Shown here: in pieces, positions 16,020 to 36,377 of the stretch
Layout of the letters: every line of letters begins with the position of its first letter
Numbering within the stretch: the first letter of the stretch is position 1
Assembly: GCA_017640685.1 (NCBI GenBank)
Contig: JAEPQF010000016.1
Coordinates: forward strand, 1-40,213
From: Hyphomicrobiales bacterium
Lineage (GTDB): Bacteria; Pseudomonadota; Alphaproteobacteria; Rhizobiales; HXMU1428-3
Direction: 5' to 3'
Length of the DNA stretch: 40,213 nt
Notes under the pieces: generated by a model
The model's input: the letters and a program-made list of their open reading frames with translations, nothing else
What the model was told of the DNA's origin: nothing
Database searches by the model: none
Translations under genes and position numbers: made by a program

Positions 16020-16427
16020 CTAGTGTACTTTAGTCTGAACGATATTTTCTTTAGGCAGTTTTTTTAAAATTATTTCTAATTGCGCCCAAAAAAACGATTC
16101 CCCAGGGTAACCTGTTATGCGTCCAACTTCCACTCCCTTATTAACAACAATAAAAGTAGGAGAAAATGCAAGTTGTTTCAAGAAACTGAGATCTTCAGGA
16201 AGTTTCTCATGTAAATCAACGCGGCGTAATGGCGCGATTTTTCCAGCAGATGTTTTATGATAAACAACACCTATTTCCTCATCCCAGACTTCACACCAAT
16301 GACATCCCCCAGCTTCAACCATAATAAGTTCAGCAGCAAATGTCTTCGCACTTCCTAAACTGCCATAAAGCATAACAATCATAGAAAGCAAAAGAACGAG
16401 ATTTTTTAAATATAGCCTTTTTATCAT
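16020..16427 (-). CDS. soxS: Periplasmic thioredoxin-like protein, SoxS type
   Basis: 135 residues. A signal peptide covers about 1-32 (YLKNLVLLLSMIVMLYGSLG, cleavage near FAAE). The mature protein is a thioredoxin fold with the redox pair Cys42-His-Trp-Cys45 in AGGCHWCEVWDEE and the cis-Pro region FSPTFIVVNKG. SoxS of Paracoccus, encoded beside soxR, keeps SoxYZ in an active reduced state; the same neighbourhood here supports that name. It is divergent from soxX, with a perfect ATTC-N8-GAAT palindrome 27 nt upstream of its start. A gap of 109 nt separates it from soxR. Other DsbE/DsbD-linked periplasmic thioredoxins are the alternative. Confidence 0.8.
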   Translation of the reverse strand: MIKRLYLKNLVLLLSMIVMLYGSLGSAKTFAAELIMVEAGGCHWCEVWDEEIGVVYHKTSAGKIAPLRRVDLHEKLPEDLSFLKQLAFSPTFIVVNKGVEVGRITGYPGESFFWAQLEIILKKLPKENIVQTKVH

Positions 16428-16453: not shown

Positions 16454-16475
16454 AATATTCAATAGCACGAATATT
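16454..16475. promoter_or_regulatory. SqrR-type operator upstream of soxS
   Basis: AATATTC (16454-16460) and GAATATT (16469-16475) are perfect 7-bp arms around an 8-nt spacer, i.e. ATTC-N8-GAAT, the consensus I recall for SqrR. It is 27 nt upstream of soxS, where a bound repressor would block transcription. Confidence 0.7.
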
Positions 16476-16638: not shown

Positions 16639-16656
16639 TATTCATACATGCGAATA
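16639..16656. promoter_or_regulatory. SqrR-type operator upstream of soxX
   Basis: TATTC (16639-16643), eight bases, then GAATA (16652-16656): a second exact ATTC-N8-GAAT site, 115 nt upstream of the soxX ATG. TATTAT at 16636-16641 overlaps it and could be a -10 element. The rest of the 344-nt gap is AT-rich and holds the leader structure listed next. Confidence 0.65.
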
Positions 16657-16700
16657 TAACTATTGATATTTATCAAAAGCTATGTCATGCTTAACCTTAA

Positions 16701-16760
16701 GTACTAATTCGGATAATAAACCCTCCAAAAAACCCGAATAGTACGAAAAGGAGGGGGAGG
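16701..16760 (+). promoter_or_regulatory. soxX leader: hairpin with anti-Shine-Dalgarno loop (possible pseudoknot)
   Basis: GTACTAATTCGG (16701-16712) pairs with CCGAATAGTAC (16734-16744): 11 base pairs with one bulged A. Its 21-nt loop contains CCCTCC (16721-16726), exactly complementary to GGAGGG (16750-16755) in the Shine-Dalgarno tract GGAGGGGGAGG of soxX. Pairing would make an H-type pseudoknot that hides the ribosome site. The complementarity is seen directly; function is inferred. Confidence 0.5.
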
Positions 16761-16771
16761 AAAATCTAGAT

Positions 16772-17257
16772 ATGAAAAAAGCAATATACACTATTGCTGC
16801 GTGTGCGCTCATGGGAGCCACGGCAGCGTCTAACGCCATATCAATAAATGCAGCTTCAGCAAATCCAGTAACACCAGACAAGGTAAAAATCGTTGATGGA
16901 GAAATTAAATCACCATTAACGAATAAGCCTGGCAATGCTGCAGATGGTAGAAACTGGTTTGCAAACAGAAAACTAGGTAATTGCCTAGCATGTCATGCCA
17001 ATCAAGACATGTCCAAAAAACCATTTCACGGAGAAATCGGACCAGCGGTAGACGCTGTTGCGACAAGATATTCACCAGCGCAACTAAGAGCTATTTTAGT
17101 GAATGCAAAATCCGTCTTTGGTGATCAAACCATTATGCCAGGATTTTACACCACTGATGCTGGCCAACGTATTGCAAAAAAATTCAAAGGCAAAACAATT
17201 CTAAACGGCCAGCAGGTCGAAGATATTATTGCCTATTTAATGACCCTTAAAAAGTAA
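16772..17257 (+). CDS. soxX: Sulfur-oxidation cytochrome c SoxX
   Basis: 161 residues. A signal peptide covers about 1-30 (AIYTIAACALMGATAA then SNA). One c-type heme site is at CLACH (Cys71, Cys74, His75), and the expected distal Met lies in TIMPGFYTTDAG. SoxX is the monoheme partner of SoxA; the SoxXA complex joins thiosulfate to the swinging-arm cysteine of SoxY in the periplasm and takes the electrons. Size and order (soxX first in X-Y-Z-A-B-C-D) fit. A strong purine tract GGAGGGGGAGG ends 11 nt before the ATG. Expression is likely controlled by the ATTC-N8-GAAT site at 16639-16656 and perhaps by the leader hairpin. Confidence 0.95.
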   Translation: MKKAIYTIAACALMGATAASNAISINAASANPVTPDKVKIVDGEIKSPLTNKPGNAADGRNWFANRKLGNCLACHANQDMSKKPFHGEIGPAVDAVATRYSPAQLRAILVNAKSVFGDQTIMPGFYTTDAGQRIAKKFKGKTILNGQQVEDIIAYLMTLKK

Positions 17258-18172: not shown

Positions 18173-18215
18173 GGCATCTCAAATTAAACACTGCTGCATT
18201 TGAGTGCCGGGGAGG
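18173..18215 (+). promoter_or_regulatory. Hairpin directly ahead of the soxA ribosome site
   Basis: GGCATCTCAAAT (18173-18184) pairs with ATTTGAGTGCC (18198-18208), 11 pairs with one bulged T and a 13-nt loop. The Shine-Dalgarno GGGGAGG (18209-18215) begins at the very next base. It resembles the soxX leader hairpin in stem size and bulge, but its loop has no anti-Shine-Dalgarno sequence. A role in mRNA stability or start access is inference. Confidence 0.45.
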
Positions 18216-21010: not shown

Positions 21011-21063
21011 TTTATTTAATATATGCAAATTTACGCATATAAGCATCTTCAAGGAGAAATGCT

Positions 21064-35930: not shown

Positions 35931-36377
35931 ATGGAACTATCAAACAAACGAACAACCCGTCGATCTATACTAAAACTTCTAGGCGGTAGTTCGCTCGCTT
36001 TGCTTTGCACAAGCTTTATCTCAAACAGTATGAGCGGAACTATAAGTTCAGCATTTGCAGCAACTGTTTCAAGGAAGCTAGACACAAAAAACGTCACTGT
36101 TCTATTAGAAGCAAAAGTAAAGCCTAAAACGAAAAAAGAGTTTCTAAAATTTCTAGATGAAAATTTACCAAATGTCCGCGGGTTTAAAGGCGCAAGGAAC
36201 GTCACCATACTTCATAATGAAACAACAATGACATTGGCCATCTATGAAGAATGGCAATCCAAAGACCATCATAAAAATTATATTAAATTCATCACAGAGA
36301 ATGGCGTTATGGAAAAACTAGCAAGTTTTTTAGACAACCCGCCATCAGTCAAATATTTTAACAAACTAAAAATTTAA
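35931..36377 (+). CDS. Tat-exported ABM-domain protein, paralogue of the preceding gene
   Basis: 148 residues. Residues 1-45 are a twin-arginine signal (TTRRSILKLLGGSSLALL, cleavage near SAFA). The ABM domain (about 55-148) matches the upstream gene nearly motif for motif: VRGFKGARNVTILHNE, AIYEEWQSKDHHKNYIKFIT, ENGVMEKLASFLDNPPSVKY. Tat export implies that the protein folds, perhaps with a ligand, before crossing the membrane. Strong AAAGGAGG before the ATG. Function unknown; it may act on the same substrate as its paralogue but in the periplasm. Confidence 0.87.
   Translation: MELSNKRTTRRSILKLLGGSSLALLCTSFISNSMSGTISSAFAATVSRKLDTKNVTVLLEAKVKPKTKKEFLKFLDENLPNVRGFKGARNVTILHNETTMTLAIYEEWQSKDHHKNYIKFITENGVMEKLASFLDNPPSVKYFNKLKI

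Follow-up and report, generated by a model that had tools for sequence, protein, structure and literature searches.

A conserved hairpin and a candidate pseudoknot at a tandem Shine–Dalgarno tract in the soxX leader of one Hyphomicrobiales genus

Contig JAEPQF010000016.1 of a Hyphomicrobiales bacterium, the 40,213 nucleotides of which are referred to here as the window, carries a sox operon whose first gene, soxX, is preceded by a leader containing a hairpin, denoted S1. The loop of S1 presents the hexamer CCCUCC, and on the evidence of sequence comparison we regard it as moderately probable that this hexamer and the distal half of a tandem Shine–Dalgarno (SD) tract pair to form a second helix, S2, giving an H-type pseudoknot at the 5′ end of the transcript that keeps soxX translation low. 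Conservation of S1 as a structure, and not as a sequence, is well supported, while for the loop–SD pairing the support is that of conservation and not of covariation.

The hairpin and the tandem SD tract

S1 consists of 11 Watson–Crick pairs and one bulged A (16707), formed between the 5′ arm GTACTA-A-TTCGG (16701–16712, + strand) and the 3′ arm CCGAATAGTAC (16734–16744, + strand), and encloses a loop of 21 nt. Both arms are identified from sequence, folding, covariation and shuffles of the most divergent leader, L006. Within the loop lies the anti-SD hexamer CCCTCC (16721–16726, + strand; CCCUCC in RNA), the candidate 5′ strand of S2, between A-rich linkers of 8–9 nt and 6–8 nt across the five genomes compared below. 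Its exact complement, GGAGGG (16750–16755, + strand), is the distal half of the SD tract and candidate 3′ strand of S2, and begins 5 nt 3′ of S1; this stem-to-SD linker is 4–5 nt in four of the five leaders and 21 nt in L006, where there is room for a small hairpin. Hexamer and distal SD half are identical in 5/5 genus leaders. An earlier note, made from the sequence of the window alone, had described the hairpin, loop hexamer and SD complement, and its sequences and coordinates proved exact.

Beyond that note, the SD tract, GGAGGGGGAGG, proves to hold two GGAGG cores in tandem, which by counting lie 17 nt (distal) and 11 nt (proximal) from the ATG at 16772. The start-proximal copy, at 16756–16760 (+ strand), is 11 nt before the ATG in the window and 10 nt in L006. 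All six bases of the hexamer can pair with the distal copy, and the proximal GGAGG falls outside the 6-bp helix. Masking of the ribosome site, as the earlier note put it, would therefore be partial on paper: the pairing covers the distal SD half and leaves out the second GGAGG, nearer the start codon.

Shuffling gives a measure of how readily such an arrangement arises by chance. In 20,000 dinucleotide shuffles of 16690–16749 that left the SD tract intact, a 6-nt SD complement alone appeared in 4,062, with an enclosing stem of at least 6 pairs in 727, of at least 8 in 75, of at least 10 in 3 and of at least 11, the size of S1, in none. The isolated window hairpin folds at −9.6 kcal/mol in RNAfold, a stability reached by 0/200 shuffles, for a stretch that had been picked for being a hairpin.

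Conservation and covariation

A SoxX search over 61 genomes located soxX orthologs in four further members of the genus, namely G002, G003 and G004 (88% identity) and G007 (69%), the window genome being G000; their leaders are denoted L002–L004 and L006, respectively. In the remaining three members of the genus (G001, G005 and G006) the only SoxX is a distant one of 45–50% identity, and a similar distant SoxX is present as a second copy (44–48%) in G000, G002, G003, G004 and G007. All four further leaders contain S1, CCCTCC and an identical 11-base tract, GGAGGGGGAGGAAAA. Identity of the window leader to L002–L004 is 0.85–0.86, compared with 0.58–0.60 for the spacer upstream.

The arms of the lower stem vary in concert, reading GTACTA/TAGTAC, GCGCTA/TAGCGC, GTGCTA/TAGCAC (twice) and GGTGCC/GGCACC. 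MAFFT alone did not align the stem of L006, so structure-guided rows were used; the resulting alignment was prepared by hand with loops and bulges removed, contains four distinct arm sets and leans towards structure, and within it 97.7% of 44 cells are paired, with two-sided change in 7/11 stem pairs and one-sided change in none. The single A–G mismatch is in L006, the bulge of which lies on the opposite arm. Column shuffles attained five covariation measures in 0, 0, 0, 1 and 0 of 500 cases, and sliding the partner abolished the signal. The stem is thus kept through compensatory change, as expected of a conserved cis-acting RNA structure, and in 5/5 genus leaders the loop has its complement beyond the stem, as expected of an H-type pseudoknot.

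L006, the most divergent leader, shares only 7/22 arm letters with L003, while its loop hexamer and SD tract match those of the other leaders letter for letter. Its stem was assessed without any alignment: with the hexamer kept and one bulge and one mismatch allowed, only 1/20,000 mononucleotide flank shuffles rebuilt a stem of 10 or more pairs in that loop position. Folded on its own with RNAfold, the L006 hairpin takes the same stem, and 1/200 shuffles were equally stable. In freer flank shuffles, where the hexamer is fixed and any flank fold counts, the result was 1/1000 for the window, 5/1000 for L003 and 8/1000 for L004.

Three observations suggest that the loop–SD pairing is more than conservation of an SD sequence. 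The distal copy has not drifted in the five leaders, although its position is poor for initiation. Across the eight genus genomes, GGAGGGGGAGGA accompanies soxX in all five and is otherwise met in two places only, making it genomically rare outside soxX. Finally, the hexamer has no other evident reason to persist while the arms around it change almost completely.

The start of the transcript

S1 probably opens the soxX transcript, judging by the sequence upstream. A promoter-like pair lies at 16663–16691 (+ strand), comprising TTGATA (16663–16668), a 17-nt spacer ending in TGT, and CATGCT (16686–16691), and in all five genus leaders the stem is preceded by TTGA at 38 nt and by a CATnnT hexamer whose end lies 9 nt away. 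This fixed distance suggests a transcription start 1–3 nt before S1, which in the window would be 16698–16700 (+ strand), and the covariation seen in the outermost pairs of S1 speaks for transcription of the stem in full. The earlier note depended on a transcript that does not begin downstream of 16701, and the promoter-like pair, in predicting ~16698–16700, supports it on this point by inference.

The TTGATA/CATGCT pair escaped the consensus promoter scan, which leaves some room for a start within the 5′ arm, such that the full hairpin is not made. The inferred −35 is overlapped by a perfect palindrome, TTGATATTTATCAA (16663–16676), which we take to be an FNR/FixK-type box and which may tie sox to oxygen; it is also present in L002–L004, and the genome has 18 TTGAT-N4-ATCAA sites, this one among them. 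FNR-driven transcription starts 41.5 bp from the box centre, which would place the start at ~16711 with ACTAAT as the −10. We consider such a start quite improbable, as the compensatory changes extend over lower stem pairs 2–6, upstream of ~16711, and both a perfect box and that −10 are missing from L006.

A hairpin at the extreme 5′ end could also serve to shield the mRNA from 5′-end-dependent decay, with the match between loop and SD being secondary. The predicted start directly before the stem, the promoter pair at a fixed distance in all five leaders and the restriction of covariation to the stem would all fit such a role. It leaves unexplained why an otherwise drifting loop holds an invariant CCCUCC complementary to an invariant and genomically rare tract, and we judge protection to be an improbable account of the element.

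Distribution beyond the genus

A descriptor scan of 59 soxX leaders matched the five genus leaders and one of the 54 others, L030. The 54 comprise 53 distinct sequences (L037 being the same as L103), and in 34 the SoxX shows 50% identity or more; because start codons were picked by rule, some leaders may be misplaced. The L030 match is taken as chance: its hexamer differs, its protein is 36% identical and its start codon is TTG. Among these 54 leaders the element did not turn up in front of soxX in other families, as a sox leader common to the order would. In the comparison of homologous leaders that the earlier note had proposed, its idea held within the genus: 5/5 genus leaders, the window included, keep the hexamer, the SD complement and the stem, the last through compensatory change. 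Outside the genus no such element was found.

Model searches gave a similar picture. In 397 genomes of the order (a drawn sample under strict filters), the covariance model R1 matched strongly nowhere but at soxX of four genus genomes; matches at E ≤ 1 came from 31 genomes, with the four training leaders at 1e-26 or better and the next at 1.6e-4. The 12 weaker places inspected were unrelated by eye, and G007 was missed. A weak R1 match in the window (15.0 bits) lies before soxA, where the hairpin has no anti-SD loop. A second covariance model, R2, built with a hand-edited L006 row, was applied to 337 genomes of the class (again a drawn sample under strict filters, where no genus member other than G000 matched) and had a strong match only at G000; 43 genomes had a match at E ≤ 0.1, the best outside the genome of the window being 1.1e-3. 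Among 41 relatives R2 recovered all five leaders, with G007 at 34.0 bits and its stem aligned broken, and ranked a place in G009 higher, at 35.0 bits, which sits within the end of a long reading frame. As a coding-region match scored above G007, R2 does not discriminate here and was not used as evidence for L006. Both models are unreliable for leaders as divergent as L006, so a more divergent relative could be missed.

The pattern CCCTCC-N{12,40}-GGAGGG occurs at 15 places in the eight genus genomes, 4 of them at soxX; the copy at soxX of G007 falls outside the pattern because its spacer is too long. By eye the 11 other places are without the architecture, and several resemble terminators. A shorter pattern, CCTCC-N-GGAGGNGGAGG, matched 184/397 genomes and was set aside as noise in G+C-rich DNA, and in viral contigs there were two places, neither of them before soxX by eye. 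As a separate observation, the soxX leaders L033, L035 and L037 from other families contain, by eye, two other hairpins that diverge in sequence between records and are seemingly still paired, with no anti-SD loop.

Proposed mechanism

S1 would form first, at the 5′ end of the RNA, and its loop hexamer would then take the distal SD, GGAGGG, so that S2 forms together with S1. S2 would hold GGAGGG and crowd, or slide onto, the proximal GGAGG, in competition with the 16S rRNA tail, and the ribosome would have to compete for the SD tract. Translation of soxX would stay low until ribosome binding, or some signal, opened S2. S1 and S2 have no bases in common and could coexist. Over the five leaders S1 alone is predicted at −11.0 to −14.8 kcal/mol and S2 alone, as a nested hairpin, at −9.4 to −10.2 kcal/mol, the CCCUCC/GGAGGG duplex having −10.3 kcal/mol. 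In nested ensembles, in which pseudoknots are forbidden, the probability of S2 is 0.74–0.93 in four of the five leaders and 0.10 in L002, and the distal GGAGG is paired at 0.78–0.96 in four and at 0.14 in L002.

A number of points weigh against a repressing pseudoknot. The folding energy of the leader as a whole is ordinary in all five cases, and energy alone would not have singled it out: in the window, 16690–16790 has a z of −1.74 (11/200 shuffles equally stable) and 16699–16765 a z of −0.13 (78/200). The freer flank shuffles are only moderate for L002 (34/1000) and L006 (53/1000), and neither R1 nor R2 recovered the L006 stem, which was matched via the SD tract with another or a broken stem. 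S2 is invariant in all five leaders and hence without covariation, and conservation of an SD is expected anyway; the sample itself is five leaders of one genus. S1 and S2 compete in nested folding, where S1 is the more probable only in L002, and the best nested fold of full-length L006 favours S2 and other pairs over S1. The proximal GGAGG is 0.59–0.89 unpaired in nested folds, and masking may be weak. Lastly, the linker of 4–5 nt that would run along an 11-bp stem is short in four of the five leaders, and the knot is made plausible only by its long other linkers; side-by-side packing of S1 and S2 is feasible but tight, by a rough estimate from extended backbone lengths.

The same architecture might instead activate translation, either by presenting the mRNA to the 30S subunit, through standby or S1-dependent docking, or by holding the distal SD so that the proximal GGAGG is used. 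In its favour, S2 would occupy the SD copy with the worse spacing (17 versus 11 nt from the ATG), and the 16S tail, in the sequence we take it to have, pairs with the tract at approximately −9 to −13 kcal/mol, which is similar to S2. Pseudoknots in the 5′-UTR (5′ untranslated region) are described as activating timP and tisB, and rpsO as being recruited via its pseudoknot (PMC11295053; PMC3858243). There is no sign in the sequence that separates activation from repression, and a helix that ends right beside the proximal SD ought rather to impede ribosome binding. We regard activation as unlikely, if the most substantial of the alternatives, and lean towards repression as the leading reading because the predicted S2 helix abuts the proximal SD.

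A more elaborate possibility is a sliding two-site switch, in which distal pairing (6 bp, with a 4–5 nt linker in four genomes) would leave the proximal SD free and be the soxX on state and pairing with the proximal GGAGG (5 bp, with a linker of ~11 nt) the off state, the balance being shifted by a sulfur-related ligand, a protein or temperature. Such a switch could provide the main sox control in a genome without SoxR, and we offer it as a speculative and rather improbable extension.

The sox operon and its probable transcriptional layer

soxX (16772–17257, + strand) is the first gene of soxXYZABC and matches the NCBIfam SoxX model TIGR04485 at 79.3 bits (cut-off 61); 3′ of it lie SoxY, SoxZ, SoxA, SoxB and SoxC, all above their cut-offs. 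Upstream on the other strand are a sulfur transporter and an ArsR-type regulator, the latter scoring 98 bits with the BigR model (below the cut-off of 155) and 87 bits with an ArsR/SmtB subfamily model (above the cut-off of 55), and named SoxR here from its context. The gene at 16020–16427 has no family match in either library, and soxS-like is used as a label only.

An ATTC-N8-GAAT site, a motif deduced for the ArsR-type repressor SqrR of R. capsulatus (PMC9774250), lies at 16640–16655 (no strand assigned), in the same place in L002, L003 and L004, and is the probable SoxR operator of the soxX promoter. A second, at 16457–16472 upstream of the divergent soxS-like/soxR/soxT genes, is kept in G002, G003 and G004 and is probably another SoxR operator; a third is found at 36287. 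Three sites in the window against 1.33 expected, with 16/100 shuffles reaching three, is not above chance, so the operator reading rests on position and conservation and not on count.

The presence of these SoxR-type sites just upstream of S1 raises the question of whether its inverted repeat is itself an operator in the DNA, bound by SoxR or some other regulator, and not an RNA structure; inverted and direct repeats in intergenic stretches of sox regions have been used as leads to SoxR sites (PMC10451225). We think this very unlikely. The arms are unrelated in L006 and varied elsewhere, yet paired, which a sequence-reading protein would hardly allow, and the ATTC-N8-GAAT sites themselves are elsewhere, at 16457 and 16640.

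The earlier note had placed translational control on top of the repressor, which fits four of the five genomes and not G007. In G007, which is 94% complete, no close SoxR was found, the best match in the genome being 38% identical, and no ATTC-N8-GAAT site with 0–1 mismatch was found near soxX in L006 1101–1500; the RNA element is present despite this. The sox operon of G007 (L079, G007:C14:16000-35500) is reduced to soxXYZAB with a beta-lactamase-fold gene, after pyc, and in this 19.5-kb stretch there was no match for soxR, the soxS-like gene, soxT, soxC, soxD, or the soxH-like and sqr-like genes.

Two further hairpin-bearing leaders occur within the operon of the window. At 18173–18208, directly 5′ of the soxA SD (GGGGAGGAAAATG), is a hairpin with a z of −0.87, which is not unusual, and no anti-SD in its loop; it is similar by eye in G002, G003 and G004. 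The soxC leader (21020–21063), nearly identical in the same three genomes, folds into two hairpins with a z of −3.06, and the SD (AAGGAG) lies inside the loop of the second or adjoins it.

Comparison with known systems

At gathering score the window matched no Rfam family, and a search of 16680–16800 up to E 10 gave three sub-threshold matches (two CRISPR repeats and bxd_1), with no riboswitch or known aptamer among them. Published control of sox operons, as far as it was found, is transcriptional repression by SoxR-type sulfur sensors, as set out in passages of PMC10451225 from which the words riboswitch, leader, untranslated and post-transcriptional are absent. No description of RNA control of sox was found in searches of open-licence full texts, which does not prove its absence from print; three papers that name both soxX and riboswitch are unrelated judging by their titles. 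If the proposal is correct, it would add an RNA layer to sox control, with a 5′ hairpin coupled to the ribosome-binding site of soxX, first of the sox genes, and this layer would exist even in G007, where the repressor was not found.

Among the closest known systems are the SAM-V and rare translational SAM-II riboswitches, H-type pseudoknots that occlude the SD (PMC6061858). They share with the proposed fold of the soxX leader a hairpin-type pseudoknot by the gene start, an SD-adjacent helix and translational logic; the soxX leader has no recognised ligand core and precedes sox, not methionine metabolism, genes. The rpsO (S15) 5′-UTR likewise has a pseudoknot at its ribosome-binding site, while in the soxX leader the loop would pair with the SD tract itself. 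In the tisB and timP toxin mRNAs a 5′-UTR pseudoknot also governs 30S access, but theirs activate translation (PMC11295053), and the predicted paired site of the soxX leader is the SD tract. Control by SoxR or SqrR concerns the same operon, with sites in four of the five genomes, and acts on DNA, whereas the RNA element persists in G007. A pseudoknot leader touching the SD is known as a kind, and as far as we have looked, the tandem-SD architecture and its place before sox appear to be new, a tandem SD with a built-in anti-SD making for a compact design.
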